Virus record (IMG/VR): IMGVR_UViG_3300048592_000353
Coordinates: 1-34,740 of that record
Origin: a virus
Strand: one strand, 5' to 3'
Length of the DNA stretch: 34,740 nt
Position 1 is the stretch's first letter, and each line of letters opens with the position of its first letter. The notes beneath the pieces are model-generated. The model was not told the DNA's origin, did not search any database, and worked only from the letters and a program-made list of their open reading frames with translations. This document shows positions 2,664 to 28,687 of the stretch, in pieces. A program made the position numbers and the translations under genes.

Positions 2664-3074
2664 ATGGTTGACAACATTGACAACATGATTATTGAACATG
2701 GCGGGAAGACGTTCGATATCAGAGCGATGGACAGGGGCGAGCTGCTGCTGCTCAAAATCTCCATTGAGAGCGACATCGACGCGATCAAGTCACAAATCAG
2801 GGAAGCACAGAACCGCGTCGCTGTGGAGCACGAGTACGCGGACCGCGACTGGTATCGTCGCGCCAACGACGCGGCGAAGATCAAGGGGCGGCAGGGGCAG
2901 CTCATTCAGGCGCGGCTCGGCATCCTGAAACAGCAGGAGAGGGAAGCTCGCCTGAGCAGCCTGCCGCGCCGGTTCATGGACGCGGCTTATGAACTGCTGG
3001 ATTTGGAAACGTATCAGCGCATTAACGACGAAGCGCACGCGGCGTTGCGGCGTGAAGGGTTGTTGGAGGATTGA
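2664..3074 (+). CDS. helical coiled-coil protein, unknown function
   Basis: A 136-residue protein with a well-spaced AGGAGA site before ATG 2664. After a short strand region (IIEHGGKTFDIRAM) it is almost entirely helical, with heptad-like Leu/Ile spacing in residues 25-100 (ELLLLKISIESDIDAIKSQI and onward) and many charged residues, so it probably dimerises through a coiled coil. It has no membrane segment or cysteine cluster. The RNA-ligase gene begins two bases after its stop, so the two are likely translated together. Function unknown. Confidence 0.55.
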   Translation: MVDNIDNMIIEHGGKTFDIRAMDRGELLLLKISIESDIDAIKSQIREAQNRVAVEHEYADRDWYRRANDAAKIKGRQGQLIQARLGILKQQEREARLSSLPRRFMDAAYELLDLETYQRINDEAHAALRREGLLED

Positions 3075-3075
3075 C

Positions 3076-4050
3076 ATGGCGAACGATCAAAAGGTCGATG
3101 TAATGAGCGAACTAATGAGCTGCGCGCTAGGAACCGCGATCAGCAGCTACCCCAAGGTCATGGCGTTGGGGCATAAGATGCTTGGCCGCGAGTTTCTTGT
3201 CGGCCAGGTGGTGGTCGAGGAAAAGATCGACGGCAGTCAGTTCTCTTTCGGTACGCGCGACGGGGAGCTGCTATGTCGCAGTAAGAACGTGCAAATCGAC
3301 CTTGCCGATCCGGGCATGTTTGCAAAGGCGGTCGCGACCGTGCGCGAGATTCAGCACCGGCTCGTGGACGGCTGGATTTACCGCGCTGAATTCCTCAGCA
3401 AGCCGAAACACAACACATTGAAATACGGCCGTGTGCCGGAGTACTACCTGATCGGCTTCGACGTAGAGGTCGCGCCGTCTGAATTCCTGCGCGAGGCGGC
3501 CAAGCACATCGCCTTTGAAGAGATCGGCATGGAAGTGGTTCCGCTGTTTTGGCGTGGGCTGGGCAGCGACCTGACACAGGACCTGATCGACAAGTGCCTT
3601 CAAGAAGAGTCGATTCTCGGCGGCGCGCTGGTCGAGGGTGTGGTTATTAAGAACTATGACCAGTTCACGCCGGATGGCAAGATAGCGATGGCGAAGGTTG
3701 TCTCTGAGGCGTTCAAGGAAAAGCACGCGACCGACTGGAAGCAGCGCAATCCGAGCGGTAAGGACGTGATCGTGCTGCTGGCGAACCAGTACGCCACTGA
3801 AGCGCGTTGGCGCAAGGCGGCGCAGCATTTGGCCGAAAGTGGAAACCTTGACGGCTCCCCGCGTGATATCGGCCCGCTCATGAAAGAGGCGCAGCAGGAT
3901 TTGCGCAGTGAAGAAGAAGACGCGATCAAGGCCGCGCTGTTCAAGCACTTCTGGCCGCAGATTGCGAAGGGCGCGACGCGCGGCTTGCCGGAGTGGTACA
4001 AGGACGAACTGGCACAGGCGATGTTCGCGGCAATGGGCAAGGAGGATTGA
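3076..4050 (+). CDS. RNA-ligase-family nucleotidyltransferase
   Basis: A 324-residue protein with TTGGAGGA before ATG 3076. It has the covalent nucleotidyltransferase motifs in order. Motif I is EEKIDGS with nucleophile Lys50, Asp52 and Gly53. A motif III-like YYLIGFDVE follows near 123-131, motif IV is EGVVIKNY at 187-194, and motif V is MAKVVSE with the lysine at 207. ATP-dependent RNA ligases of the Rnl2/RNA_ligase type use these to form an enzyme-AMP and seal 3'-OH/5'-phosphate ends. A helical C-terminal part of about 110 residues follows. No OB-fold is evident, which favours RNA ligase over replicative DNA ligase. It could repair host tRNA or mRNA nicks made in antiphage defence, but no polynucleotide kinase is seen in the window. 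Confidence 0.75.
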   Translation: MANDQKVDVMSELMSCALGTAISSYPKVMALGHKMLGREFLVGQVVVEEKIDGSQFSFGTRDGELLCRSKNVQIDLADPGMFAKAVATVREIQHRLVDGWIYRAEFLSKPKHNTLKYGRVPEYYLIGFDVEVAPSEFLREAAKHIAFEEIGMEVVPLFWRGLGSDLTQDLIDKCLQEESILGGALVEGVVIKNYDQFTPDGKIAMAKVVSEAFKEKHATDWKQRNPSGKDVIVLLANQYATEARWRKAAQHLAESGNLDGSPRDIGPLMKEAQQDLRSEEEDAIKAALFKHFWPQIAKGATRGLPEWYKDELAQAMFAAMGKED

Positions 4051-4504: not shown

Positions 4505-5868
4505 ACGAACAGGAGCGCGAATACCATCCGGCAGCCAACATATTCCCGCTGATGCAAGGGGCGGAGTACGAAGACCTGAAAGCCGACATCGCTGCCAATG
4601 GCCTGCGGGAAGCTATCTGGCTGCACAAAGACGGCCGTATCATCGACGGGCGTAATCGGCATAGGGCGTGTCTGGACACCGACACGCTGCCGCAATTCAG
4701 GACGTGGGGCGGGAAAGGGTCGTTGGTGTCGTTCGTGGTGTCGCTGAACTTGCACCGGCGGCATCTGAGCAGCAGCCAGCGCGCGGCCGCGGCGATTGAA
4801 ATGTTACCGCTGTACGAAGCTGAGGCGAAAGAGCGGCAAGTGACGCTGGCTGGTACGCGCCGGAACGATGAAGCAGACCTTCCGCAATTAATTGCGGAAG
4901 GTGCAACCGGTGAAGCGCGCGACATTGTTGCGCAAGACTTCGGCACGAACCGGCAATACGTTTCCGACGCCAAGCGCCTGAACGAAGAGGCGCCTGACAT
5001 TTTTGAGCGAGTCAAATTAGGAAAGACCACAATCCCGAAGGCGAACAAGGAACTGAAAGAGCGCAATCAAGCCCCTCGTCATTTGACAATCCCCTCCCTC
5101 GCTGAAGAGATGATCGGCCTACCCGATCAAGAACGCTTCGAGCGGCTCGGCTGGGGTCTGCGCACATGGGATGACTGGCGCTTCGACAAGTGCGATGAAC
5201 GCTTTGGCGACGACTGGCCCGGCCGCATTCCCGCGCAATTAGTCGCTCACACGCTGTTCTACTTTACTCGCGAGGGAGACAGAGTGCTCGATCCAATGGC
5301 GGGCGGCGGCGTGGTGCCGGATGTGTGCAAGGTGTTCGGACGGCCGTGTGATGCCTTCGATCTGGCGACACGGCCGGAGCGACCGGAGATCCGTAAGCAC
5401 GTCTGGAATCCGGCGTCTCCACAGTGGCCCGCGGACACCGAGCCGCCGGACCTTATCTTCTTCGACCCGCCTTACTTCAGCAAGAAACAGAGCGAGTACG
5501 CAGACAAAGCCGGAGCCGGAGAAGTGCCGATCAGCGACCTTGACCGGCGCGCCTACCTGGACTTCTTTGCCCGCTTCTTCCGGCTGGCACGCGCACGATC
5601 CGGACATGGCACGCGCATGGCGTTTCTGAACGCGGATTGGCGCGACTTTCAGGGCACTCCCGCGGTTGATGAAGCGCACTATGAGGCGATCACGCTGCTG
5701 GATTACGCCGACCTGCTGAAGCGCAACGGCTGGAACATCACGCACCTGATCGACGCGCCGATGTCAACCGAACGCTTTAACGCCGGGGTTGTGTCAGCGA
5801 TGCAAAAGCGGCGCATCCTCGGCGTCGTGCGCAGGACACTCATCATGGCGGTGGCGACGAATGACTAA
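4501..5868 (+). CDS. ParB-like domain fused to DNA methyltransferase (DPPY type)
   Basis: A 455-residue fusion starting at GTG 4501. Residues 1-60 are a ParB/Srx-like N-terminal domain, with the [10 protein letters not shown] signature at 49-58. Residues 125-190 hold a KorB/ParB-like helix-turn-helix ([20 protein letters not shown]). Residues 240-450 are a methyltransferase: motif [10 protein letters not shown] at 262-270 binds S-adenosylmethionine, and motif IV FDPPY at 321-325 is the catalytic loop of amino-methyltransferases acting on adenine-N6 or cytosine-N4. No partner restriction endonuclease is adjacent, so this is best read as a solitary phage methyltransferase that may protect viral DNA or mark sites. 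Target specificity cannot be read from the sequence. Confidence 0.8.
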
Positions 5869-7469: not shown

Positions 7470-7733
7470 ATGCCGAGAATAGTCAAGAACAGATCATCGG
7501 AACCATCTGAGCCGGTCAAGCCGCCAATCGTGGCCAACGAAGTGAACGCACTCGCGGCCCGCATCTCCCGCAAATATGGGGACGTGCCCGGCGCGGTCGT
7601 GGCCCTGATCGTCGCGCACGACGGGCCGGTCCAGTGCTGCATACAGGTCGGTGGCTTTGAGGTCGCGTATCAGACGGCCGCCACGATTGCCGAGGCTATG
7701 GCGCTGGCTGAAGCGGAAGCGTGCAACACATGA
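7470..7733 (+). CDS. small protein of unknown function
   Basis: An 87-residue protein with GGGGGTAGG ahead of ATG 7470. After a basic, Pro-rich start (RIVKNRSSEPSEPVKPP) it has helix-strand-strand-helix alternation (NALAARISRKYG, AVVALIVAHDG, QCCIQVGGFEVAYQT, AEAMALAEAEAC), which resembles a small alpha/beta fold. No family recognised. It overlaps the zinc-ribbon gene by ATGA. Confidence 0.5.
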   Translation: MPRIVKNRSSEPSEPVKPPIVANEVNALAARISRKYGDVPGAVVALIVAHDGPVQCCIQVGGFEVAYQTAATIAEAMALAEAEACNT

Positions 7734-8341
7734 GCGAGAAGAAGGTCAAGTGCTCACGCTGCGGCGCGCTGACAAAGCATCGCCAACTGTGCGACCAGTA
7801 CCCGCCGCCGCGCGATCTGGTCATGCTGCTCATTGAAACGCCGATGCTTATGAGCGATTACGAGCGCGAATTCCTGCGCGCCGGATCGCGTTATTTCATT
7901 TACACCCGCTACAACCTGGGTCTTGCCATTTTGGAGCAGGAAAACCCGCAGTTGTTGGCGCGCTGGCATTCGTGGCGCGTCGATGAAACGAACAAGCGCA
8001 GGTTGAAGGGGCAAAGAAACAGCGGGAGGTACGGCGTCAACGCCAAGTACTGCGCCTGCTGCGAGGCAAAGCTGAGTAGTAAGCGCCTGCTGAAAGCAGC
8101 CGGGGTCTATGGCGATTATTGCGGGTGGTGCGTCGCTGAGCTGCGCTACAAGGCGGTATGCAGCGGCGACGTTCCCGAAGATATGCCGCTTGCTGAATTC
8201 GCCGAAGTGCTGGCAAAAAGTGGGACCGTGGCGGCGATGCAGAAGCGCCGCGAGTGGGTCAGCAAGGCCGCCGGAAAAGAGAGTAAACATCGGCCCGGCG
8301 CGAAAGCGATTGCGGGGCAGAACGTGCCAGCCTTCGCATAA
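7730..8341 (+). CDS. zinc-ribbon protein of unknown function
   Basis: A 203-residue protein. ATG 7730 in an ATGA overlap is preferred to the in-frame GTG at 7721, which lies further inside the previous gene. Two cysteine sets are visible: KCSRCG near the N-terminus with a later Cys, and CACC followed about 30 residues later by CGWC, consistent with two zinc-binding knuckles. The C-terminal part is basic (KRREWVSKAAGKESKHRPGA), suggesting contact with nucleic acid. It precedes the terminase genes and could be an HNH-less packaging accessory or a transcription regulator. The role is unknown. Confidence 0.5.
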   Translation: MSEKKVKCSRCGALTKHRQLCDQYPPPRDLVMLLIETPMLMSDYEREFLRAGSRYFIYTRYNLGLAILEQENPQLLARWHSWRVDETNKRRLKGQRNSGRYGVNAKYCACCEAKLSSKRLLKAAGVYGDYCGWCVAELRYKAVCSGDVPEDMPLAEFAEVLAKSGTVAAMQKRREWVSKAAGKESKHRPGAKAIAGQNVPAFA

Positions 8342-13398: not shown

Positions 13399-13445
13399 GC
13401 AGGTGGAAATTATCAACCTTTAGCTGGGGAGCCAAAGGGTGTGTA

Positions 13446-13913
13446 ATGATGACTGAGTTGGAAGCTGACAGGATGGTGCAGATTGACGGGGAGGTAACGG
13501 CGCGGGCGCTGCCCATGCGGCCGGATGGGGAAACGTTCAGCGCCGTGTTCGCCCTCCCATCCCGCGAACATGACCCGGAAGGGAAGATAGCGAAGGCGAT
13601 AATTCAGGATGCGAAGATGAACGCCCTGCGCAGGGCGTTCGTAGACAGCGGCGCGATCTGGAACGGCCGTACGTACACGATCCAGTTCGACGAAGAGCGG
13701 GAACGGGTTCCTGAGTTCTACGGCCGTTTTGCGGATGGTGTACGCTTGCATTTATCTGTCCGGCCGGTGGCTCGGAGCGTCTTTGCTTACAACGACTTCA
13801 CCCGCTATGTGACGAAAGACGGCCCGATACAGATGAGGCGCAGAGGTTGGCGCGGCAAGGTGCTGCGAGCGGTTGAACGGTTGCTGAATGTGGGCAGTGG
13901 AGGTGGACGATGA
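13446..13913 (+). CDS. protein of unknown function (155 residues)
   Basis: Two adjacent ATG codons (13446 and 13449) can start it, and the longer frame back to 13275 would overrun the preceding gene. GGGGAGCC and AAAGGG lie upstream. The middle contains an alpha/beta pattern (ETFSAVFALPSRE, AIIQDAKMNALRRAFVDSGAIW, YTIQFDEER). The C-terminus is strongly basic (RRRGWRGKVLRAVERLL), suggesting nucleic acid or membrane contact. No signature is recognised. It overlaps the next gene by ATGA. Confidence 0.5.
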   Translation: MMTELEADRMVQIDGEVTARALPMRPDGETFSAVFALPSREHDPEGKIAKAIIQDAKMNALRRAFVDSGAIWNGRTYTIQFDEERERVPEFYGRFADGVRLHLSVRPVARSVFAYNDFTRYVTKDGPIQMRRRGWRGKVLRAVERLLNVGSGGGR

Positions 13914-14293
13914 AGGGTGGAATGGAACTTGAAACAGTTAATAACATTAAGTGGGATGTGATAAGCGAGCCGTACTTGGGAGGGTACAAGTTATACGGCT
14001 TCATAGACGCAAACATGGGGGGATTCGCCGTCCCCGTCAAGAAAGCGGTCTGGGAGACAAAAGAGGTGGGCACGGTCGTGCCGATTGATGAGGTTGTTCC
14101 ACTCTTGGCCTTGACCCACGAATCCGCCAGCCAGCTCATGGATCAGCTATGGCTGGCCGGTGTACGGCCGTCCAACGGCGCGGGCAGCCAGGCAACGCAC
14201 GAGGCGCTACAGGCTCATATCAAGGATTTGCAGCGCACAATTGAACGGCTCTTTAACGAGATTGAACGGGCCGGGAAGCGGGGTGGCGCGTGA
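13910..14293 (+). CDS. protein of unknown function with C-terminal coiled coil
   Basis: A 127-residue protein from the ATG of an ATGA overlap. The first 70 residues are strand-rich with many Gly and Val (LGGYKLYGFIDANMGGFAVP). Residues 68-85 form a helix (ALTHESASQLMDQLWLAG). The last 35 are a charged coiled coil (HIKDLQRTIERLFNEIERAG), a likely dimerisation element. It overlaps the LexA-like gene by GTGA, so the two may be co-translated. Function unknown. Confidence 0.5.
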   Translation: MKGGMELETVNNIKWDVISEPYLGGYKLYGFIDANMGGFAVPVKKAVWETKEVGTVVPIDEVVPLLALTHESASQLMDQLWLAGVRPSNGAGSQATHEALQAHIKDLQRTIERLFNEIERAGKRGGA

Positions 14294-14895
14294 TCGGGAA
14301 AGACACTCGCTCCGCCGACATTCTGCGCTTCCTGTACGAATACACGGCCGACAATTACGGCCGTTCGCCAAGCTCACGCGAGATCGCAAGCGCGGTCGGC
14401 CTATCCTCCACAAACAGCGTGCATATCTATCTCAAGCGGTTGGTTGAAGCGGGCTACATCGAACTTGTAGACGGCGGCGCGCGCAATATCAGGATCGTCG
14501 GCGCATGGTACAGCAACCCGCCGCTGCCGGATGAACTCGCGGCGCAGTACAACGAAGGCTATACCACGCGCGACCTCGGTGACTTGTACGGCGTGTCGCA
14601 GAGAACGATCACGACTTGGCTGAAACGTTCGCCGGATTACGCGCCGCGACAGAACGGGGTGAAGTGCTCCAAGCTGCTGAGCATGAAACCGCAGCATCCC
14701 TGCGCGGTGTGCGAGATTGACCTCGATCACCCGGACATGATCCGCATTGGGGACAAGTGCCTTTACTGCGCTGAAGAAGAGCTGCGGCAGAAGCTGGCCG
14801 AGGTCATGAGCGACCGCCCCGGCGTCCGCATGTCCGATCTTGACCTCTACCCCGCTAAATTCGCCGTGCACGTCGCACGGAGCCACTCACGATAG
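14290..14895 (+). CDS. LexA-like DNA-binding protein with zinc ribbon, no peptidase domain
   Basis: A 201-residue protein starting at GTG 14290. Residues 8-72 match the LexA N-terminal winged helix (ILRFLYEYTADNYG, then REIASAVGLSS and IYLKRLVEAGYIEL). Residues 88-115 hold a second helix-turn-helix (YTTRDLGDLYGVSQRTITTW). A CxxC pair in CAVC and another in CLYC form a probable zinc ribbon near 137-160. LexA's C-terminal serine peptidase (S24) is missing, so it should not self-cleave. It ends 64 bases before the promoter of the head operon, so it may control that promoter or the leader behind it. This is inference. Confidence 0.65.
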   Translation: MIGKDTRSADILRFLYEYTADNYGRSPSSREIASAVGLSSTNSVHIYLKRLVEAGYIELVDGGARNIRIVGAWYSNPPLPDELAAQYNEGYTTRDLGDLYGVSQRTITTWLKRSPDYAPRQNGVKCSKLLSMKPQHPCAVCEIDLDHPDMIRIGDKCLYCAEEELRQKLAEVMSDRPGVRMSDLDLYPAKFAVHVARSHSR

Positions 14896-14958: not shown

Positions 14959-14985
14959 TTGACTTCTCAGAAACAATGATATAAT
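14959..14985 (+). promoter_or_regulatory. sigma70-like promoter before the protease/capsid operon
   Basis: TTGACT (14959-14964) and an extended -10 TGATATAAT (TATAAT at 14980-14985) are separated by 15 bases, slightly short. The predicted start is near 14992. It reads into a conserved leader and a terminator before the protease gene. The rest of the 14896-14958 gap holds only a weak CGCCGCA/TGCGGCG inverted repeat. Confidence 0.65.
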
Positions 14986-14989
14986 GGTG

Positions 14990-15079
14990 TAGAACGTTGT
15001 GAAACGTTAGATAACAAATAAATCGAGAAACGTTAGAAACTCGCCGTCGTCAGCATCCTTGCTGGCGGCGGCTTTTTTT
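14990..15079 (+). ncRNA. leader or small RNA, copy A of a repeated element
   Basis: The predicted transcript of about 85-90 nt runs from the promoter at 14985 to the T run at 15079. It shares TTGTGAAACGTT (14997-15008) and an unbroken 28-bp block (15024-15051) with copy B at 21208-21290. CGAG/CTCG can form a small stem around an AAACGTTAGAAA loop, followed by the terminator hairpin. It could be a free small RNA or an attenuator leader for the head operon. Confidence 0.5.
15043..15079 (+). terminator. intrinsic terminator upstream of protease gene (copy A)
   Basis: A 13-bp stem (15043-15055 with 15060-15072, including two G-T pairs) has a TCCT loop and seven T residues at 15073-15079. It lies about 90 bases downstream of a promoter and 20 bases before the next gene, so transcription of the head operon needs readthrough or antitermination unless another promoter exists. 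Confidence 0.8.
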
Positions 15080-15099: not shown

Positions 15100-16284
15100 A
15101 TGGCTAAACAGCAAACTGAGTTCAAAAGCGTGCCGCAGTACATCAAGAGCGTGGACGGCCGTACGGTCGAGGGCGTGTTCGGCGTGTTCGGTAATCTGGA
15201 CAGTTACAACGACATCTCGCATCCGGGGTCATTCGCCAAGACCATCGCTGAACGCGGCGGGAAGGTGCTGCATTTGTGGCAGCACGACTTCTGGTCGCCG
15301 CCTACGGCCGTCGTGACCAGTCTGCGCGAGATAGAGCGGCTGGAACTACCGGCTGTGGTACAGGCCAAGTTCCCGGAAGCGACCGGCGGCGCGGCGGTCA
15401 AGCGCACGTACATCGAAAGCCCGCGCGCCGACGAGATTCTGGCCTTGATCAAGGCTGGATCGCCTCTTGAAATGTCCTATGGCTACGACGCGATCCGCGT
15501 CGAGTACGAGGAAACCGAAGATCACGGCACTGTGCGGCACCTGCTGGAACAGCGTCTGTGGGAGACATCGGACGTGCTGTGGGGAGCCAACAGCGCGACG
15601 ACGGTCAGCAAGGCACGGCCGTCTATCCCGCTGGACACGCTGTTGGGGCAGCTTGACAACTACCTCAGCGGCATGAAAGAGGGGCGGCGCAATGCCGAGG
15701 GCGACCTGGAACGCATCAATACCATCGCAACGCTTGCTTATGAACTGGGAGCGACCAGCGTCAAGTTGGTGACCAGTGAAGACGAGAAGGGGAAAGAAGC
15801 GGCGCTTGCTCAGGTAGCAGAAGCGGCAATGGCGGCCGCCACGAAAGAGGGCAAGGCAGAGAGCGAAACGCCGGAAGACGGCGAGCCGAAAGCCGACGCG
15901 CTCATCGTGGTCGTCGATCCGGAGCAGGCTGCTGCGCCTGAGCCGCCCGCCAACGCGGACGCGGATGGAAAGATCGCGGTAGGCGGCAACGTGGCCGAAG
16001 AACCGAAGGCAGAAGCGGGAGACCCCGAAGAAGCGGACAAGCCGGAAGCGGAAAACGCCGCGCCGGAACCGCCCGCCATTGACCCGGAAAGCGCGCCGGA
16101 GCCGGAAGATGCTCCACCCGCTGAGCCGGATAGCACAGACCACGCCGAAACAGAAGACACACACGAAGAAGTAGACGACGAAGCAAAGCAGCGCCGAGCC
16201 GGAGCCGCCGCAAAGGACGAGCAACCACTCACCCTGTTATTCGCTGAACTGGATTTGTTGGAATTGGAAGTTTTTCACCTTTGA
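15100..16284 (+). CDS. HK97-type prohead protease with long acidic C-terminal region
   Basis: A 394-residue protein with CCGAGGTGGGGG before ATG 15100. Residues 10-185 match phage prohead proteases (peptidase U35 / herpesvirus assemblin fold): GVFGVFGNLDSYNDISHPG, then LWQHD with His62, and the SPLEMSYGYDAI strand with Ser126, the expected catalytic His and Ser. The protease matures the capsid by cleaving scaffold and the capsid N-terminus. Residues from about 230 to 370 are very rich in Glu, Ala, Pro and Asp with no evident fold. Because no separate scaffold gene lies between protease and capsid, this tail probably serves as a fused scaffold. That role is inferred. Confidence 0.85.
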   Translation: MAKQQTEFKSVPQYIKSVDGRTVEGVFGVFGNLDSYNDISHPGSFAKTIAERGGKVLHLWQHDFWSPPTAVVTSLREIERLELPAVVQAKFPEATGGAAVKRTYIESPRADEILALIKAGSPLEMSYGYDAIRVEYEETEDHGTVRHLLEQRLWETSDVLWGANSATTVSKARPSIPLDTLLGQLDNYLSGMKEGRRNAEGDLERINTIATLAYELGATSVKLVTSEDEKGKEAALAQVAEAAMAAATKEGKAESETPEDGEPKADALIVVVDPEQAAAPEPPANADADGKIAVGGNVAEEPKAEAGDPEEADKPEAENAAPEPPAIDPESAPEPEDAPPAEPDSTDHAETEDTHEEVDDEAKQRRAGAAAKDEQPLTLLFAELDLLELEVFHL

Positions 16285-16303: not shown

Positions 16304-17515
16304 ATGTTAACGAAAGAAGCGAAGTTACAGAAGTTGGTTGCGGACGCGAAGGCGCTCCGTAACACGTTGGAAGAGCGTCAGGAAGCCGGGGGCGATGTCA
16401 CGCAGGAAGAGCGCAATAACCTGCAAGCGATGATCGACGACGGCACGAAACTGAAAGCGCAGATCGAGCAGGAAGCGAAGCTCGATGAGATGGACACATG
16501 GATCAACGCGCCCGCGCACGAACGCCGCTCCAAGCTCGGAGCCGAGGCGCCGCAGCGGGCCAAGTCGTGGGGCACGATGGTCGTTGAATCGAAGGAATTC
16601 GAGTTCGCGTCCGAGAACGGCCGTGGCATGGCTCCGGTAATGGTCAAGGACATTCACGGCCTGGCCGAAGCCGCAGGCGGCGCATTGGTCGAGGCGATGC
16701 GTGATCCGGAACTGGGCATGATTGCCCAGCGTCCGCGCTCCGTGCTGGACCTGATCACCGTCGCGCAGACGAACAGCAACAGCGTGCAGTACGCGCGCCA
16801 GTTGGCGCGCACGAACGCCGCTGCACCGAAGCTGGATTACGACAGCGGCTGGGTGAGCAAACCGGAAAGCAACATCACCTTTGAGTTGAAGACCGCGCCG
16901 GTGGAGACGATCCCGACCTATGTCGAGGCCCATCGCCACATTCTGGCCGACGCGCCACAACTGCGCAGCCTGATCGATTCCGAACTCACGTACATGGTAC
17001 GCAAGGTTCTGGAAGATCAGATCGTTTCCGGCAACGGCACGTCACCGCAGTTCGACGGCTTGACCCACGTCTCCGGCATTCAGACCCGCACGCAGGGAGC
17101 GACCGGGGATCGTGGCGGCGAGACGACCGACACGAAGGCCGACGCGCTGCGCCGCGCGATCACCGACATTCAGCTTGCCTTCTACGAAGTGGACGGCGTT
17201 CTGATCAATCCCGGCGACGCCGAAGACCTGGAATTGGCGAAAGACGCCAATGGCAATTATCTGAACATCTACGATCCGGTCGCGCTGCGCCTGTGGCGTG
17301 TGCCGGTCGTGGAATCGAGCGTGATGACCGCCGGGACTGCGCTGGTCGGCAATTTCCGCATGGGCGCAACCCTGTGGGATCGCCAACAGACGGAAATCCG
17401 CGTCGGTGAGCCGGGCAGCATGTTCCTTCAGAACGCGGTGGCGATTCTGGCTGAGCTGCGCGCTGCCTTCGGCGTGAAGCGCCCGACGGCATTCGAGAAA
17501 GTGACCTTCGCCTAG
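16304..17515 (+). CDS. major capsid protein (HK97 fold)
   Basis: A 403-residue protein directly after the protease. Residues 1-75 are a charged coiled coil like the HK97 delta domain, which the protease removes (LQKLVADAKALRNTLEERQE). The body has family landmarks: a serine/asparagine-rich stretch VAQTNSNSVQYAR, PVETIPTYVEAHRHILADAPQL in the spine region, GNGTSPQFDGLTHVSGIQT in the P-domain, then VDGVLINPGDAEDL and LWRVPVVES, ending with FLQNAVAILAELRAAFGVKRP. It forms the icosahedral shell. AGGGAGCCACTC precedes the ATG, a ribosome-site cassette also seen before the next gene. Confidence 0.92.
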   Translation: MLTKEAKLQKLVADAKALRNTLEERQEAGGDVTQEERNNLQAMIDDGTKLKAQIEQEAKLDEMDTWINAPAHERRSKLGAEAPQRAKSWGTMVVESKEFEFASENGRGMAPVMVKDIHGLAEAAGGALVEAMRDPELGMIAQRPRSVLDLITVAQTNSNSVQYARQLARTNAAAPKLDYDSGWVSKPESNITFELKTAPVETIPTYVEAHRHILADAPQLRSLIDSELTYMVRKVLEDQIVSGNGTSPQFDGLTHVSGIQTRTQGATGDRGGETTDTKADALRRAITDIQLAFYEVDGVLINPGDAEDLELAKDANGNYLNIYDPVALRLWRVPVVESSVMTAGTALVGNFRMGATLWDRQQTEIRVGEPGSMFLQNAVAILAELRAAFGVKRPTAFEKVTFA

Positions 17516-20146: not shown

Positions 20147-21160
20147 ATGGCTGAAATAGCTTTTGAATCATTGGCAATGGCGCTGGAAGGGACGACCGGC
20201 ACGGCCGAAACCGCACCGACCAGTTTCATGAATCTGGCTGGTACGTTAGAGCCGGTCATTGAGTATTACGAGCCGGACGAATCCAGCGGCTTGCTGGCTG
20301 CGCGTATGCGCACGAAGCAGACGCGCAAGTATGGCAATTTCGACGCGGATGGTCCGCTGGACCCGAACACGCTCATTGAGTTCCTCTCGATGATCGCCAA
20401 AGGCGGCGTTACTCCGGCGCAGCCTGGCGCCGCGTCGGATACGTATGATTGGGATTTTTCGCCCACGATGGACGCGGACGATCTGAAGTTCGCCACCCTG
20501 TGGTGGGGCGATCCGAACATGACGCATGTCCTGCGCGGCAAGTATGGCTTCATCGACAGTCTCACGATTGCCAGTGATGCTTCCGGTATCGACGGCGCGA
20601 CGCTTTCCATCTCCGGCATGACCAACTTCCCGGAGAAGGTCACGCCGCCGACGTATCCGGATCAGGCATTTGCGCCGCTGATCGCCGGTGTGAACATGCA
20701 GCTCTATCTTGACACGACCAGCGCCATCGGCACGACGGCCGTCACCGGTCGCGTGGTCAGTGCGCAGCATGTGCTCGAATCCGGCATCACGCCGAAGTAC
20801 GTCGCCGCCGGTCCGACGGCCGATTTGTCCTACTCGCGGCATGGCCGTGGCAAGCGCGGCATGGTTACGAGCGTGGTCATGGAGATCCCGGATTACGCGC
20901 AGTATGACATCGCCATGCTGGCCGATACCGTCGCCAAACTGCGCGTCGTGCACAATGGCGCGTTCATCGAAACCGACAGCGTAGCCCTGTACTACGGCGT
21001 GACTGTAGATACCTACGGCGTGCTGCGCTTCGGCGGTTGGGGCGAGCTGGAAGGCACGAACCGCACAGCGACCTTTGAGGTGCACAGCGAGTACAACGCG
21101 GGCGCGGGTGTAGACTGGGCAATCAAGGTCCGCAATAAGGCCGCTGCGCTGGCTGCGTAG
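20147..21160 (+). CDS. major tail (tube) protein
   Basis: A 337-residue protein with CAGGGGAAGGGGAG before ATG 20147. The N-terminus reads ALEGTTGTAETAPTSFMNLAG, a common opening for tube proteins. A beta-rich body follows, with repeated strand-forming segments (YDWDFSPTMDADDLKF, GFIDSLTIASDASGIDGATLS, MQLYLDTTSAIG, LRFGGWGELEGTNRTATFEVHS). It immediately precedes the tail chaperone genes, the usual place. Hexameric rings of this protein form the tail tube. The length is at the upper end for tube proteins, so an Ig-like extra domain may be included. Confidence 0.75.
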   Translation: MAEIAFESLAMALEGTTGTAETAPTSFMNLAGTLEPVIEYYEPDESSGLLAARMRTKQTRKYGNFDADGPLDPNTLIEFLSMIAKGGVTPAQPGAASDTYDWDFSPTMDADDLKFATLWWGDPNMTHVLRGKYGFIDSLTIASDASGIDGATLSISGMTNFPEKVTPPTYPDQAFAPLIAGVNMQLYLDTTSAIGTTAVTGRVVSAQHVLESGITPKYVAAGPTADLSYSRHGRGKRGMVTSVVMEIPDYAQYDIAMLADTVAKLRVVHNGAFIETDSVALYYGVTVDTYGVLRFGGWGELEGTNRTATFEVHSEYNAGAGVDWAIKVRNKAAALAA

Positions 21161-21176: not shown

Positions 21177-21206
21177 TTGACAGTCTTTATCCGGCGGTTA
21201 TATACT
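21177..21206 (+). promoter_or_regulatory. sigma70-like promoter before the tail chaperone operon
   Basis: TTGACA (21177-21182), an 18-base spacer, and TATACT (21201-21206) make a near-consensus promoter. The predicted start is near 21213, inside the TTGTGAAACGTT motif (21208-21219) shared with the element at 14997. It lies right after the tube gene. Confidence 0.75.
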
Positions 21207-21207
21207 T

Positions 21208-21317
21208 TTGTGAAACGTTGCAAAATGATGTGAAACAACATCAAACCCGCAACCGCTCACGCCGAGAAACGTTAGAAACTCGCCGTCGTCAACAGTTCTG
21301 TTGGCGGCGGCTTTTTT
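21208..21317 (+). ncRNA. leader or small RNA, copy B of a repeated element
   Basis: A predicted transcript of about 105 nt starts near 21213 and ends at the T run. It shares the 28-bp block (21263-21290) with copy A (15024-15051). A second TGTGAAAC at 21230-21237 adds to the direct repeats of GTGAAAC. The same two-hairpin order is present: the CGAG/CTCG stem and then the terminator. Confidence 0.5.
21282..21317 (+). terminator. intrinsic terminator upstream of tail chaperone gene (copy B)
   Basis: A 13-bp stem (21282-21294 with 21299-21311) has a GTTC loop and six T residues at 21312-21317. Compared with copy A, the fourth base pair from the loop end region changes from G-C to A-T on both sides (CAGCA/TGCTG against CAACA/TGTTG), which keeps pairing. 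Confidence 0.8.
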
Positions 21318-21351: not shown

Positions 21352-21780
21352 ATGTTCATTAACCCGCAGGAAACGTTAACCGTACACGACGACAAGGGCA
21401 ATTCCATTGTCATCAAAGCCAAGATGGATTTTGCCGATTACGCCAAAGTCGAAGCCGCGCTCATGCAGTTGAAGTTAAAGAGCGGCACGAATGGCAGCAC
21501 GCGGCCGGCAGACCAGGCCGAGATGGAGATCGACGCGACTGTCACCTACAGCGCGCAGAAGATGGCGCTGCTGAAGGTCTGCATCCGCAGTTGGGATGGT
21601 CCTGATTTCGTCGGTGTGGTGTGCAGCGAAGCCAACATTGCGCGGCTTGACCCGAACGAGCCGCTGGTCGAGAAGGTGCTGGACGTGATTAACCAGCGCA
21701 ACGAAGAGCCGACCAAAGCGCCGCCCGCAGCCCCGGCGCCTGACCCAAACTTCCAGGAGCCGCCTACCTTCGCGGAGTAA
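21352..21780 (+). CDS. tail assembly chaperone (gpG-like)
   Basis: A 142-residue protein with AAGGAGAG before ATG 21352. The longer frame from 21301 would begin inside the terminator. Residues 1-110 form a small alpha/beta domain (LTVHDDKGNSIVIKAKMDFA, KMALLKVCIRSWDG, EPLVEKVLDVINQRNE) typical of tail chaperones that coat the tape measure before tube assembly. A Pro/Ala-rich linker follows. A slippery heptamer CCCAAAC near the 3' end allows a -1 shift into the gpT-like extension. Position between tube protein and tape measure is the classic one for this gene. Confidence 0.75.
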   Translation: MFINPQETLTVHDDKGNSIVIKAKMDFADYAKVEAALMQLKLKSGTNGSTRPADQAEMEIDATVTYSAQKMALLKVCIRSWDGPDFVGVVCSEANIARLDPNEPLVEKVLDVINQRNEEPTKAPPAAPAPDPNFQEPPTFAE

Positions 21781-22051: not shown

Positions 22052-25000
22052 GTGACCGCAGAACTCGCAATCATCGCCAAGCTGGAAGACAACGCAAGCA
22101 AGGGCCTTGCGTCTCTGGACGGCCAGCTGCGCGGGCTGGAAGGCGCGGGCGGTGTCGCGTCCAAGGGGTTCGCCAACCTTGAGACAGTGATGAAGGCGAC
22201 CGCTGTGGCGGGGGTTGCGGCGTTTGCGGCTGTTGGCGCGGGTGCGATAAAGCTCGGCGTAGACGGTGTGAAAGCGTTCGCTGACTTCCAGGGCGGCATG
22301 AACGAAGTGTTCACGCTTATGCCGGGCATGTCGCAGGACGCCATGTCGGCCATGAGCAACGACGTTCTCGCGTTCGGCCAGTCCATCGGTAAAACGTCTG
22401 ACGAAATTATCCCGGCGCTGTATCAGGCTATCTCTGCCGGTATACCAGCAGAGAACGTGTTCACGTTCATGGAGACGGCGAACGCGGCGGCGGTCGGCGG
22501 CGTGACCGATCTGGAAACGGCCGTGGACGGTATCACGTCCGTGGTCAATGCCTACGGCGCTGAGACGATGAGCGCGGCGCAGGCCAGTGACTTGATGTTC
22601 ACGGCCGTGAGGCTGGGCAAGTGCGTCACCGGCGACACGCGGGTACTACTCGCGGACGGCCGTTACGTGCGCATTGACGAGCTGGAAGAAGGCGCGGACG
22701 TGGTGTCTTATGACGGCCGTACATTCCAGGTACGTCCGGCGACGTGGGTGGATCAGGGTACGAAGCCGACTGTGAAGCTGACCACACGCCTGGGCCGCGA
22801 GATCACCACGACATGGAACCATCCCTATCTGGCGCACAAGAAAGGACGCGACATACGCTCCAATGCCCGGCCGGAGTGGACAAAGGTAAGCGACCTTGAA
22901 GTTGGCGACCGCATTGCGGTGCCGACGGCGCTCCCCTACTTCGGTGACGTTGATGTGCCGGAACACGAAGCCGCGTTTCTGGGCTTGTGGCTTGCTGAGG
23001 GCGCTGTACAGAAAGGCTCCGCGAAGATAACCACCACGCTCTACGGCGACCAGATCACGACATGGGCTGACAAGTTCGGCTGCGTCGCCAACAACACTGA
23101 CAAGCGCGAAGGCGCTGCTCCTGTTTACCAGTTCACGAAAGGTTACAGGGGCGGCCGTGAGCGCACACGGCCGCAAGAGCTGCTTATCGAGCTTGGCTTG
23201 GATGACGTGACATCGGCCACGAAGCACATCCCTGAGCAGGTGTTTAGCTGGAAGCGTGAGCGTATCGCTACGATGTTGCACTGGCTGTTCAATGGCGACG
23301 GGTGGCTGAATGACGTGAGGCAGCAAGGGCGCAGCGGCTTCCAGCTTGGCTTTTGCTCCAAGAGCGAGCAGCTAGTGCGCGATGTGAATCACCTGCTTTT
23401 GCGCTTCGGCATTGTGGGGCGCATTCGCCAACGTAAGGATGTCAATGCATGGGTCTGGGAAGTCAACCGGCACTATGAGATTTCGCGCTTCGTGCGCTTT
23501 ATCGGTATCGACCGCCCCGCCGCCGAACGTGTCGCAATCCATGTGCCGGAAAAGCAAAAGGCAAGCTTCGACGTAGTTGAATACGACCGCATTGTCAGCA
23601 TCGAATCCGGGCCAGAACAGCACGTTTACGATCTGTGTGTCGATGAGCTGCATAACTTTGTCGCCAACGACATTGTGGCCCACAACACCGACTTCAGCCA
23701 ACTCTCCGCCTCCCTCTTCCAAGTCACGCCAACCGCCGCCGCCCTCGGTGTCGGCTTCGGTGATGTCACCGCCGCCCTGGCCAGCCTGACCGCGCAGGGC
23801 GTGCCCACCTCTGTCGCTACGACGCAGATGCGGCAGATGTTCATTGAGTTGAGCAAGGAAGGCGGCAAGACTAGCGCCACGTTCCAGGAGCTGGCCGGCC
23901 AATCGTTCAAGGACTTCATCGCTTCCGGCGGTAACGTGGCCGACGCGCTGGAAATGTTGGAAGCATACGCCAAAGAAACCGGCGTCGGCGTAAACGATCT
24001 GTTCGGTTCAGTGGAAGCGGGCGCGGCGGCGCTGGGCCTCACCGGTTCCAGCATGGAAGGCTTCCGCGCCAACCTCGCGGCGATGGACGAATCGGCCGGA
24101 GCGACGCAAGCCGCTTACGAACAAATGAAAACCGGCATGCAGCTCGTCTTCGACATCATCGGCGCGACGGTTGACAACTTCAAGATTCGGATCGGCGCGG
24201 CGCTGGCTCCGTTCGTGGACGAACTCGCTCCGAAGATCGCTGCCTTTGCAGAGCAGGCCCTGCCGAAACTGGAAACGGCGTTCAAGGCGGTCACAGAGGT
24301 GATCGCGCTGTTTACCGGCCTCGGTTCGGATTCCATTGACACGCTGGACAACATGCGCGACGTGCTGTTCGACCTGGGCATGACATCGCCCCAGGTGGAT
24401 GCCCTGGAAACGGCCGTGCGCAACGTGGCCGACGCCATCAAGTCGTTCATCGCCAACCTGCAAGAGGGCATGTCGCCGATGGATGCCTTCATTGAGGCGA
24501 TCTGGGATATGGTTCCGCTAGAGACCGCGATGGCCTTGGCGAACATACGTGATGGGATAAACAGCTTTATCGATGCGGTAAAAACAGCGGTAGAGCCGAT
24601 CACCTCCTGGATTCAGGAGAACGTCAAGCTGCAAGACATCCTCGCCGTCATGGGCCTGGTTGTCGCGTCCGTTGTCCTACCCGCGCTGGCCTCGTTGCTG
24701 GTTACGGTTCTTGGCTTTATTGCGCCAATTGCGGCGCTCGTTCTCGCCGTCGCCGGACTGCGCGTCGCGTGGGAGAGTGACTTCCTCGGCATCCGCACGG
24801 CCGCTGAGGGCGCTTTCGAGTTCTTGCAAGGCGCATTTGAGTCGGTCAAGACGGCTATTGACACGTTCAAAACCGCAATGGCTGACGGCCTCGATCCGGT
24901 TGACGCGCTGCGTGAAGCTATAGGCACGTTTGGCGAAGACGCACAAGGCGTATTCGACAAGGTGATGGAAGCGGTCGGCAAGCTCACAGACTTCTTCGCG

Positions 25001-28000
25001 CCCACTATCGAGCGCATACAGGAAGCGTTCGCCGGATTAGGCGACAGTATGAGCGAAAACAGCGATGTGATCGATGGGCTGAAAGAAGCCTTTGATCGCA
25101 TCGTGCCGATTCTTGAAACAGTCGGCGGAATCATTGGCGGGGCGCTCGTCCTGGCGGTGAAGGTGCTCATGGAAGCCTTCGGGCAGCTAATCGAGAACGC
25201 CGGTCAAATTTTCGGCGGGCTGGTCGAGACTATCACCGGTGCACTGGACACGATTTCCAGCATCGTCGAAGGCGTGATCGGGATCGTTAAGGCGGCCATT
25301 GAAGGCGACTGGACAGGCGCGTGGGAAGCATTCAAGGAAACAGCGTCCGGCGTCATCGAAGGCGTGACAACCATTATTAGCGGGTTGGGGGAGATCGTCG
25401 ATGGTGTCTTCGGCGCAATTTGGGACACGATATCCAATCTCGTCACCGACCTCGGCGGCACGGCCGTCACATGGGATGAGTTCAAAACCAATATCAGCAC
25501 CGCCTTTGAGGACGCCAAGACAGCGGTCACGACAGCGCTCACTGACGCGCTGGCCGCTGTCACCGGCTTTGTGACCGACATCACGCAGGCAGGCCGCGAC
25601 ATCATCAATGGCCTGATCGGCGGTATCGAAGAAAAGAAGGAAGCCGTCAAAACCAAGATAACCGATATCATTGGCAGCATACCGGACGCGGTGAAGAAAC
25701 TGCTCGGCATCGCGTCACCATCTCGCGTCTTCGCCGCTATCGGCAGCTTCATCATGGACGGCCTCGCCATCGGCATTGTCGAAGGCGCTGACGGCCCAGT
25801 CGCGGCCATTCGCACGGCCGTCGGTGACATTAAGCTCACCGCCATGAACGAGATCGCGGAGATGGTCGTCAACGTCACCTCGGCGATCAATCCGGCGATT
25901 AACGCCCTGAACCAGTTGGCGAATTTCAGCGTTGACCCGCGCGTCGGCGAGAACACGAGCCAGTTCATGTTCTATCTGCGGCATCTGGTCGCCTCGGTGG
26001 TTGTCATGGCCTTCGAGCTGGACGGCGCGCGCAACAAGACGCTGAAAATGGCGCAGATCATCAATGAGATCGTCGGCAGTGTCGGCAGCGGAATCACGTC
26101 CTTTAACCAGTTAGCGCGCATGGCCTTCCCGCCCTCGCTATTGCCCAACATCGACCAGTTCGCCGGAGCGGTCGGGCTGTTGGCGTTCCAGTTCGCCTCC
26201 ATCGCTGACCAACTGGAAACCGAGTTGATCGTCAAGGCACAGGCGCTGGCTGAGATGACCGGCGAGTTGTTTGGCGTTATCTCCGAAGTGCTGGACGGCT
26301 CTCGTGCGCTGGCAAACATGGATTTCGCGGCAGTCGTGTCTGGGCCTTACGGCACGCTGGCGAATCAGATCGTTGTTTTCCGCAACATCGTGCGCACGTT
26401 GGTTCGTGAGTTCGCCGAAGCCGCGCTGGAACTTGGCGGCTTTGCCGATTTCGTAAGCGCGTTTGCTGAGGCGGCAGATAAGGTAGTCGGCCTAATCGCT
26501 GAGGCATTGGAAGCGTCATTGGCGCTGGCTCAGACTGACTTCGATGCCTTGGTCAATGGCCCATACAACCATCTGGCGACGCAGATCGTGACGTTCCGCA
26601 ACATCATTCGCACGCTCGTGCGCGAATTCGCCGGAGCAGCGTCAGATTTCAGCGTCGAACTCATGGACAGCGTGAGCGCCTTCGCCGACGCGGCTGGGGA
26701 TATTGTCGGCCTCGTCGCCGACGCGCTGGCTGCAACGACGCTGCTTTCGGAGTTCGACTTCGTAACGGCCGTCGGTGGCATGACGTTGGCAAACAACATC
26801 CTCATTTTCCGCAACATCGTCAATACGCTTGTCGCCCGCTTTGCCGAAGTCGCCGCCGGTTTCACCGACGCTCTGTCGAGCCAGGTGCAGTCGTTTGCCG
26901 ACGCAGCCGAAGCGGTGCTTGACCTGATCGAGCCGGGTATCGAAGCGGTGCGTATTCTGGCCAATGAGAGCATTCCCTCACTGGCCGAAGCCGGAGCCGG
27001 GACTGACACGACGCTCATTCGTTTATCGGACTGGATCAGCCTGATTGCCCAGCAGTTTTCCATGATCGCCCAGGGCATGAGCGAGGAAATGTTTACCAAT
27101 GTTGAGGACTTCACCAACGCGGCGCTGGATTCGATGAGCTTGATCGAGCCTGGTATTGCGGCCGTGCGCACATTGGCTACCGAAACCATCCCGTCCGTTG
27201 CTGAGGCCGGTGCGGGTACTGACACAACACTCATTCGCCTATCGGATTGGGTAAGTCTGATCGCGCAGCAGTTCAGCATGATCGCGCAAGACCTCAGCGA
27301 AGAGGCGGCAACGGCGATCAATCGCTTTGCAACCGCAGCAGAGGCGGTTCTCGGTTTGATTGAACCGGGCATCGCTGCGATTAAGGCGCTTGTTGAATAT
27401 GAAGGGGTAAGCACGCTGAAAGGCAAGGTTGAAACGTTTGCCGATGATTTGAAAACAGCCGTGGTCACGTTGGCGAACAAGCTGAACGAGATTGCTGACG
27501 GGGTGGAAGGCACGCTTACGGATGCGGCGACACTGGCTGGGACAGCTTCCGGCGTGCTGGCGATTGTTGGCCCGGCTATCGACGCGCTGAAAAAGCTGGC
27601 CGAGTACGAAGCTGTCAATAAGTTGCCGGAAAAGATGACTAAGTTCACGACCGACCTTGATACGGCCGTGCGCACGCTATCGGAGAAGCTGAACGCGCTG
27701 GCGAATGACATCGGTGACGAAGTGGCGACTGCCGCCACGTTCGCGGGCAGCGTCACTGCTATCTTCTCGGAAGTGTCGTCGGCGCTTGACGGCCTGAAAG
27801 CTATCGCTGATGCCAAGACTCCCAAGACAGAGCCGAAGATGGAATATCTAGTCGAGCAGGCCAACCTCATCGCCACGACGCTCAGCGGCGCGAATCAGAC
27901 GATCAATGGCACGATTGTTGCGGCCGCCAAAGCATTCGCCGCCGCAGTGAATGAAGTCGTCAGTGAAGTCATCGAGGCGCTGGCAAGCCTGAACCGGCTC

Positions 28001-28687
28001 GTCACCGCCAACACGCCGGGCGGCTTACAAGCGATCCTTGACGCTATGCGCGCGGCGCTCAGTAACCAGATCGGACCGGCGGGGATTATCGGACGCGAAA
28101 TCGGCAACGCTTTTGCGACCGGCCTAATGGCTGAAATGCAAAGCCTGCTCAATCAACTGAGCGGAGCCATGAACACGCTGCTGGCTATTCTGCGCTCCGG
28201 CATTGGCCCGGCGGGGCAGGCGGGAACTGATTTGGGGAGAGCGTTTGCCTCGGCGTTGGCGGCACAGCAAGGGCTGGCGGCTCAGGCCGGTGCGCTTATC
28301 GGCGACGCAGCGGCCAATGGCCTGAAAAACGCGCTGAACAAGCAGGCCGCCAACATCGCCAACGCCGCGCGGGACATGGCGCGGCAGGCAGCGGAATCGG
28401 CGCGGCGGGAGTTACAGATCGCGTCACCATCTAAGGTGTTCACAAAGATCGGCGAGCAAGCCGGTCAAGGGTTCGTGCTGGGCCTGCCGACCATCAACGC
28501 CGCTGCCTTTGCGGGCGCGGGCGCATCTTCTGCCACAACTAACAACGTGCGCCAAGGCGACAACATTTCGATCCACATCTCGGTTGGCGGCAACGTCAGC
28601 GCGTCAACGCTGCGCGACGTGGAGACGGCCGTGCAGCGCGGGCTGAACAGCGCCGGTCGCAGCGCGGAAAGCAGGAGACGGCGATGA
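22052..28687 (+). CDS. tape measure protein precursor with in-frame intein
   Basis: A 2,211-residue frame from GTG 22052, the largest gene here. Residues 1-190 and 546 onward are the tape measure: LEDNASKGLASLDGQLRGLEG, an N-terminal Ala/Gly-rich helical part, and the conserved GFGDVTAALASLTAQGVPTS region after the intein. Residues 191-545 are a complete LAGLIDADG intein, so the mature protein is about 1,856 residues. At about 0.15 nm per residue this predicts a tail near 280 nm. Hydrophobic segments lie at about 863-905. Two SPS(R/K)VF motifs (DNA near 25712 and 28428) flank an array of 72-residue repeats. The protein sets tail length, and its hydrophobic part may enter the host membrane at ejection. 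Confidence 0.9.
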   Translation: MTAELAIIAKLEDNASKGLASLDGQLRGLEGAGGVASKGFANLETVMKATAVAGVAAFAAVGAGAIKLGVDGVKAFADFQGGMNEVFTLMPGMSQDAMSAMSNDVLAFGQSIGKTSDEIIPALYQAISAGIPAENVFTFMETANAAAVGGVTDLETAVDGITSVVNAYGAETMSAAQASDLMFTAVRLGKCVTGDTRVLLADGRYVRIDELEEGADVVSYDGRTFQVRPATWVDQGTKPTVKLTTRLGREITTTWNHPYLAHKKGRDIRSNARPEWTKVSDLEVGDRIAVPTALPYFGDVDVPEHEAAFLGLWLAEGAVQKGSAKITTTLYGDQITTWADKFGCVANNTDKREGAAPVYQFTKGYRGGRERTRPQELLIELGLDDVTSATKHIPEQVFSWKRERIATMLHWLFNGDGWLNDVRQQGRSGFQLGFCSKSEQLVRDVNHLLLRFGIVGRIRQRKDVNAWVWEVNRHYEISRFVRFIGIDRPAAERVAIHVPEKQKASFDVVEYDRIVSIESGPEQHVYDLCVDELHNFVANDIVAHNTDFSQLSASLFQVTPTAAALGVGFGDVTAALASLTAQGVPTSVATTQMRQMFIELSKEGGKTSATFQELAGQSFKDFIASGGNVADALEMLEAYAKETGVGVNDLFGSVEAGAAALGLTGSSMEGFRANLAAMDESAGATQAAYEQMKTGMQLVFDIIGATVDNFKIRIGAALAPFVDELAPKIAAFAEQALPKLETAFKAVTEVIALFTGLGSDSIDTLDNMRDVLFDLGMTSPQVDALETAVRNVADAIKSFIANLQEGMSPMDAFIEAIWDMVPLETAMALANIRDGINSFIDAVKTAVEPITSWIQENVKLQDILAVMGLVVASVVLPALASLLVTVLGFIAPIAALVLAVAGLRVAWESDFLGIRTAAEGAFEFLQGAFESVKTAIDTFKTAMADGLDPVDALREAIGTFGEDAQGVFDKVMEAVGKLTDFFAPTIERIQEAFAGLGDSMSENSDVIDGLKEAFDRIVPILETVGGIIGGALVLAVKVLMEAFGQLIENAGQIFGGLVETITGALDTISSIVEGVIGIVKAAIEGDWTGAWEAFKETASGVIEGVTTIISGLGEIVDGVFGAIWDTISNLVTDLGGTAVTWDEFKTNISTAFEDAKTAVTTALTDALAAVTGFVTDITQAGRDIINGLIGGIEEKKEAVKTKITDIIGSIPDAVKKLLGIASPSRVFAAIGSFIMDGLAIGIVEGADGPVAAIRTAVGDIKLTAMNEIAEMVVNVTSAINPAINALNQLANFSVDPRVGENTSQFMFYLRHLVASVVVMAFELDGARNKTLKMAQIINEIVGSVGSGITSFNQLARMAFPPSLLPNIDQFAGAVGLLAFQFASIADQLETELIVKAQALAEMTGELFGVISEVLDGSRALANMDFAAVVSGPYGTLANQIVVFRNIVRTLVREFAEAALELGGFADFVSAFAEAADKVVGLIAEALEASLALAQTDFDALVNGPYNHLATQIVTFRNIIRTLVREFAGAASDFSVELMDSVSAFADAAGDIVGLVADALAATTLLSEFDFVTAVGGMTLANNILIFRNIVNTLVARFAEVAAGFTDALSSQVQSFADAAEAVLDLIEPGIEAVRILANESIPSLAEAGAGTDTTLIRLSDWISLIAQQFSMIAQGMSEEMFTNVEDFTNAALDSMSLIEPGIAAVRTLATETIPSVAEAGAGTDTTLIRLSDWVSLIAQQFSMIAQDLSEEAATAINRFATAAEAVLGLIEPGIAAIKALVEYEGVSTLKGKVETFADDLKTAVVTLANKLNEIADGVEGTLTDAATLAGTASGVLAIVGPAIDALKKLAEYEAVNKLPEKMTKFTTDLDTAVRTLSEKLNALANDIGDEVATAATFAGSVTAIFSEVSSALDGLKAIADAKTPKTEPKMEYLVEQANLIATTLSGANQTINGTIVAAAKAFAAAVNEVVSEVIEALASLNRLVTANTPGGLQAILDAMRAALSNQIGPAGIIGREIGNAFATGLMAEMQSLLNQLSGAMNTLLAILRSGIGPAGQAGTDLGRAFASALAAQQGLAAQAGALIGDAAANGLKNALNKQAANIANAARDMARQAAESARRELQIASPSKVFTKIGEQAGQGFVLGLPTINAAAFAGAGASSATTNNVRQGDNISIHISVGGNVSASTLRDVETAVQRGLNSAGRSAESRRRR
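22622..23686 (+). mobile_element. LAGLIDADG intein inserted in the tape measure gene
   Basis: A 355-residue insertion at the conserved LGK/T junction of the tape measure. It starts with Cys1 (CVTGDTRVLLADG, block A) and has TWNHPYL (block B) at 65-70, with its Thr and His. The two LAGLIDADG-type motifs are FLGLWLAEGAV (about 119-129, acidic residue Glu126) and LHWLFNGDGWL (219-229, Asp226). It ends VYDLCVDELHNFVAND then IVAHN, followed by Thr as the +1 residue of the C-extein. All splicing and endonuclease residues appear intact. The homing endonuclease would cut intein-free alleles of the same gene. Two ACGGCCGT palindromes lie inside the intein. Confidence 0.92.
25885..27820 (+). repeat. 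array of ~72-residue repeats in the tape measure
   Basis: The segments with G/D-L-I-x-x-x-L start at 26273, 26489, 26708, 26921, 27137, 27353 and 27560, giving steps of 216, 219, 213, 216, 216 and 207 bases, with a further weaker unit near 27770 and two earlier ones from about 25885. Each unit has FA.AA..V..LIE/A....A...LA, then a variable part, then LI.LSDW or FRNI.RTLV..FA. Units at 26921 and 27137 share LIEPGI.AVR.LA, and those between carry GAGTDTTLIRLSDW twice. Confidence 0.8.

Follow-up and report, generated by a model that had tools for sequence, protein, structure and literature searches.

The question raised by this locus is what a promoter that runs straight into a strong intrinsic terminator is doing directly in front of late genes, and why the arrangement stands twice in one virus. 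The window, meaning the whole stretch of DNA analysed (34,740 nt, positions 1 to 34,740 of IMG/VR record IMGVR_UViG_3300048592_000353), is part of a 70,608-base contig from a sister sample, the two being 1 base apart, and the virus is here called virus A. Its head module is of the HK97 type (terminase, portal, protease and capsid), its tail module includes a tape measure gene, and the rest of the contig specifies a tyrosine integrase, a ParA-like ATPase, an anti-repressor and a DnaA_N-type replication protein. From this gene content, virus A is judged to be a temperate siphophage-like virus. A Chloroflexota host, prompted by the DnaA_N-type protein, was also considered, but a sample of 400 Chloroflexota genomes gave it no support: it yielded one distant terminase only, and the RNA model matched just ordinary terminators.

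The two elements, E1 and E2, and the late genes described with them are on the + strand. E1 stands between the gene for a LexA-type helix-turn-helix regulator (14290-14895, with a LexA DNA-binding domain), directly upstream, and the head maturation protease gene (15100..16284; PHROG 80, E 1.7e-25; Peptidase_S78, E 5e-11), which begins ~20 nt past the E1 T run; the same operon includes the gene for the HK97-type major capsid protein (16304..17515; PHROG 10, E 1.3e-52). E2 lies between genes for a probable tail-tube (major tail) protein (20147..21160; 72% in virus B, described below) and a probable tail assembly chaperone-like protein (21352..21780; 56% in virus B), and its operon includes the tape measure gene (22052..28687; PHROG 1272, E 1.6e-74), which carries intein and LAGLIDADG domains. 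Neither of the genes flanking E2 gave a family match, and both assignments come from position, that of the chaperone-like gene from its place between tail tube and tape measure.

The E1 promoter (14959..14985) consists of TTGACT (14959-14964), a 15-nt spacer and TATAAT (14980-14985), with 11/12 consensus bases and an extended -10, TG-A-TATAAT (TGATATAAT). It is followed by a leader (14986..15023) with a hairpin predicted by folding (AACGUU-GUGA-AACGUU), the conserved motif CGAGAAACGTTAGAAACTCGCCG (15024..15046), and an intrinsic terminator (15043..15079) with a 13-bp stem, a 4-nt loop and seven T. The E2 promoter (21177..21206) is, as the preliminary description had it, close to consensus: TTGACA (21177-21182), an 18-nt spacer and TATACT (21201-21206), again 11/12. 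The E2 leader upstream of the motif (21207..21262) carries GAAACGTT at 21212-21219 and is predicted to form the hairpin GAUGU-GAAACA-ACAUC enclosed by GUUGC/GCAAC, a sequence that is not conserved, the virus B copy having another hairpin. The motif (21263..21285) touches the terminator (21282..21317; GCCGTCGTCAACAGTTCTGTTGGCGGCGGC + TTTTTT), which has a 13-bp stem, a 4-nt loop, six T and a fold z of -3.1 to -3.7. The whole leader is ~75 nt, and the tail gene starts ~35 nt past the terminator (~34 nt past the T run).

Both terminators thus have the G+C-rich hairpin and following U run of the intrinsic type (13-bp stems with 8-9 G-C pairs, then 6-7 T). When a strong terminator is taken as 10 or more perfect pairs plus TTTTT, they are the sole ones on the + strand of the 70.6-kb virus A genome, and both have a promoter matching at least 10/12 positions within 120 nt upstream. 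In 88 dinucleotide shuffles the mean number of such terminators was 0.011, and the joint promoter-terminator case occurred in none. A covariance model found no third copy in the 70.6-kb genome, no Rfam family passed its gathering cut-off in the window, and the element DNA had no real match among named phages. A tiny reading frame, (A/G)TG AAA C, is possible near the expected RNA 5' end in three of the four leaders now available (e.g., GTG AAA CGT TAG; sites at 14999-15010, 21210-21233 and near 5664 of virus B contig L160), which may be chance.

A terminase search led to a relative, L027 (66% amino-acid identity), and an alignment-based capsid search to L160, its continuation; these contigs share a 1,957-nt overlap at 99.95% identity and so represent one virus, here virus B. 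Its E1 homolog (L027:9031-9164) lies before the protease gene and its E2 homolog (L160:5633-5794, with the promoter at L160:5633) between the tail-tube and chaperone-like genes, so that in both viruses both copies occupy the boundaries between late gene blocks that had been described for the first genome. Aligned head and tail proteins of the two viruses are 57-72% identical, which indicates that the elements have been maintained over a long time. All four share the same order, i.e., promoter, leader, motif, hairpin, T run, a gap of ~20-40 nt and a start codon. The genes 5' of E1 have been replaced in virus B (by a methyltransferase and others), and the element still adjoins the protease gene.

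The exchange of a G-C for an A-T pair in the upper terminator stem, from CAGCA/TGCTG in E1 to CAACA/TGTTG in E2, is indeed present. The rest of the block had been thought identical, but the loops differ at 4/4 bases as well (TCCT in E1, GTTC in E2), giving 6 differences and 89% identity over the 55 nt from 15024-15078 and the matching part of E2. Selection on RNA structure had been claimed from this exchange, but a lone double change in a pair of copies is little proof of it; the alignment of four copies makes the far better case. Over the four homologous blocks, the 13-pair stem is 92.3% paired, with five pairs invariant, two variable on one side and four changed on both sides while pairing is kept; two inner pairs are lost in virus B. 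Neither the pairing nor the covariation was equalled in any of 500 shuffles, and pairing in slid controls dropped to 19-60%. Covariation among relatives, proposed earlier as the appropriate check, therefore favours selection on the hairpin structure, and this evidence, coming from four sequences of two viruses and one tree, is supportive, not overwhelming.

More of the conservation lies outside the hairpin. The 23-nt motif CGAGAAA-N4/5-GAAACTCGCCG abuts its 5' side and is invariant in 4/4 elements apart from the central 4-5 nt, leaving ~19 invariant bases upstream of the hairpin. The CGAG and CTCG of the motif never vary, and could pair around a 12-13-nt loop. Identity of the motif is 100% within virus A, 87% within virus B and 74-82% between the viruses (82% between the two E1 copies). 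Such likeness within each virus would be expected if both copies answer one factor or have been homogenised; read from the alignment, it reflects homogenisation or co-evolution with a common factor, and gene conversion can also produce it. Among 2.9 million viral contigs scanned for GAGAAA-N4-AGAAACTCGCC, only virus A and virus B carried it ahead of a terminator; the remaining matches had none following. Among the matches listed from 84,980 bacterial genomes, those inspected had no matching terminator.

The preliminary description had looked instead to GAAACGTT as the target of a trans-acting factor. This repeat occurs nine times in the window against 1.0 expected, with 5/9 sites in or beside the two elements; it overlaps the expected E2 start and is also found in the E1 leader. 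In part it is simply the virus A version of the variable motif centre; a further copy lies close to the start point. It is absent from the virus B elements and has no occurrence in L027, whereas the motif is kept, and a functional role for the repeat was therefore set aside. The shorter GAAAC occurs on the sense strand 3, 4, 1 and 2 times in the four leaders and is clearly enriched in virus A only.

We propose that E1 and E2 are promoter-leader-terminator switches through which read-through into two late operons is regulated, a reading we hold at about even confidence. Host RNA polymerase would initiate at the sigma70-type promoter of either element, make a leader of ~85-105 nt carrying CGAGAAA-N4/5-GAAACTCG just before the hairpin, and be halted by the strong intrinsic terminator. 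Only polymerase passing that terminator would transcribe the head operon (E1) or the tail operon (E2); late in infection, a factor or an RNA state at the promoter or leader would raise read-through at both sites. The promoters, terminators, structural conservation and motif, and the absence of space for a further promoter, can be read directly in the DNA. Because only ~20-40 nt separate the T run from the start codon in 4/4 elements, too short a distance for another promoter, the late genes would need read-through, either from the element promoter or from upstream, and this step is close to established from the layout. Beyond this we infer regulation of the read-through, recognition at the motif and action late in infection. 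Conservation of the motif argues for the switch, as simple termination works without it, and so does retention of the element at the protease gene when the genes upstream were replaced. The compensated stem, the uniform order of parts in both viruses, the likeness of the motif within each virus and the unrelated units ahead of the head protease region in two more distant viruses count on the same side. Coordination of two late operons by the pair, suggested from the first genome, is plausible.

Several considerations weigh against the proposal: a terminator that simply leaks in part, without regulation, would give this same picture; were antitermination from E1 processive, there would be no obvious need for a second unit at E2; no antiterminator was recognised among the proteins scanned; and gene conversion could also account for the likeness of the motif within each virus. 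The terminators might be nothing but punctuation, ending most upstream transcripts, leaking at a fixed rate and being topped up by the promoters, with a leader that senses nothing. E2 fits this well, as it directly follows the tail-tube gene, which is probably highly expressed, and a drop before the low-copy tape measure would be useful; the terminator, together with its A-rich upstream arm pairing with the U tract, could account for part of the motif, and fixed partial read-through of a leader terminator is documented for IsrK (PMC4825925). The gene before E1, however, is not one for which high expression would be expected, the ~19 invariant bases exceed what termination needs, and in 4/4 copies the promoter lies upstream of the terminator and so feeds the terminator and not the gene, for which reasons we consider fixed-rate punctuation somewhat unlikely.

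It is less likely still that the units are genes for a small non-coding RNA of ~85-105 nt that acts in trans, their placement before late genes being secondary. Each unit has its own promoter and strong terminator as such a gene would, and in a distant relative (L196:18540-18800) tandem units occupy a gap without an evident forward gene after it. It is the terminator-proximal part of the RNA, however, that is conserved between the viruses, the 5' part being poorly so, no known RNA family was matched, and the units always abut a late gene start with no space for a further promoter. Lowest of all we place a DNA-binding repressor or activator, such as the LexA-type protein encoded at 14290-14895, that would use the GAAACGTT sites and the motif as operators or stoperators. 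The position of its gene directly upstream of E1, its LexA DNA-binding domain, and the excess of GAAACGTT (nine against one expected, with sites at the expected E2 start and in the E1 leader) would suit this, but the virus B version is 85% identical over the first 90 residues and yet no GAAACGTT occurs in L027. In addition, 4/9 of the sites lie elsewhere, three of them inside genes, and LexA-type GAAC-N4-GTTC sites are absent from the genome, so that direct control of this kind appears very improbable.

The regulated switch can be compared with several known systems. The layout of sigma70 promoter, short leader and intrinsic terminator before the first late gene, found at both elements in both viruses, is that of lambda Q and phage 21 Q (pR'-tR') and of the Q-like AlpA of Pseudomonas aeruginosa, where terminators lie just upstream of the first gene and two such operons are controlled (PMC7969949). 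Unlike in those systems, the E1 spacer (15 nt) and the E2 spacer (18 nt) differ in length and sequence, no shared element is evident between -35 and -10, and the motif adjoins the terminator instead of lying in the promoter. The proteins scanned included none recognisable as Q, N or another antiterminator, Q families being diverse. A zinc-motif protein of no recognised family (7730-8341; 203 aa, with CxxC pairs, 34% conserved in relative L026) was, for its size and position, tried as a Q-like factor and rejected, its low-confidence model having a mean pLDDT of 65.6 and no fold match.

As with lambda nut and HK022 put, there are two related cis sites per genome in transcribed leaders ahead of terminators; putL and putR are likewise similar in sequence, each located 3' of its promoter (PMC9378689). 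Unlike them, E1 and E2 serve late and not early operons, and the motif, with a putative role in antitermination, is only ~23 nt long and directly abuts the terminator. Inspection of the leaders revealed no boxA-like sequence, nor the boxA plus boxB hairpin of nut, and in place of the ~70-nt put RNA with two stem-loops the elements conserve one hairpin and the 23-nt motif; the hairpin further upstream in the leader varies from copy to copy, and none can be made out in the E1 of virus B. By analogy, IsrK of Gifsy-1 is also a short RNA made by leader termination, with partial read-through into downstream phage genes (PMC4825925), but by its description it is set apart as a single copy, with different genes and translation-based control. 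A further analogy may be drawn with GafYZ of the Caulobacter gene transfer agent, in which head and tail genes are expressed only once polymerase passes a terminator, which GafZ bypasses (PMC11150451), but there the first gene precedes the terminator, and the site bound by the anti-terminator lies between -35 and -10. Lacking the spacer element, the put fold, boxA/boxB and a recognised antiterminator, E1 and E2 are best described, as far as can be judged from their bases, as promoter-proximal terminator leaders outside the Q, put and nut classes.

It could be speculated that a new nut/put-like antitermination system, with its own phage factor, loads at CGAGAAA-N4/5-GAAACTCG and licenses the head and tail operons separately, site and factor co-evolving in each virus of an uncultured temperate phage lineage; this more specific version is doubtful at present. 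If read-through is regulated, the elements constitute a late-gene switch with two matching copies per genome, in a group of viruses of which the collections searched contain few relatives. Having two copies and a related virus opens the recognition site to direct testing.

More distant relatives separate layout from sequence. Five contigs (L193-L196 and L198), whose tail-tube proteins are 38-42% identical, have abutting tail-tube and chaperone-like genes and no E2 element. Absence of the element without effect on gene order had been named beforehand as a finding that would refute the first interpretation, and at this distance that is partly what was found; among the viruses sampled E2 is confined to the A/B lineage, and the order of genes is independent of it. 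It presumably arose in the A/B ancestor as a copy of E1. Before the head protease region, L195 and L196 carry an extended -10 promoter (TGCTATAAT), ~45 nt and an 18-bp terminator, unrelated in sequence to E1, and the start codon comes 18 nt past the point where the T run begins. In L157 a very strong terminator occupies the matching position, without a clear promoter. The layout ahead of the head operon thus recurs where its sequence does not, and a promoter facing a terminator at this position hints at a common control logic.

Other units of this kind were seen in the same contigs. The two tandem units at L196:18540-18800 each have a TATAAT promoter and then a strong terminator ~47-49 nt on, and are possibly small RNA genes. 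At L157:755-845, a TTGACA-17-TACACT promoter is followed by 15 nt, a 12-bp terminator and then ATG, and the terminator 3' arm is repeated just downstream, so that two alternative hairpins could form.

Some features of the virus A genome lie apart from the elements. An RNA ligase gene (PF09414, PHROG 548) is found at 2989-4050, upstream of the terminase. The tract 13422-14530 shares 94% DNA identity with L027:5007-6143 in virus B, while neighbouring genes share ~70%, a contrast that points to recent exchange; the tract takes in a small gene together with the regulator's LexA-type domain, whereas the C-terminal part of the regulator differs. The tape measure intein (Pfam Intein_splicing, E 9e-17, residues 199-545, plus a LAGLIDADG domain) apparently has a counterpart at the same place in virus B. 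Lastly, the palindromic octamer ACGGCCGT, which did not reach comparable density in the 400 sampled Chloroflexota genomes, is present in 99 copies in the 70.6 kb of virus A (L019-L022), where ~2 would be expected from base composition, and in 56 copies in 20.5 kb of virus B (L027 and L160), a density that resembles that of a HIP1-type highly iterated palindrome.
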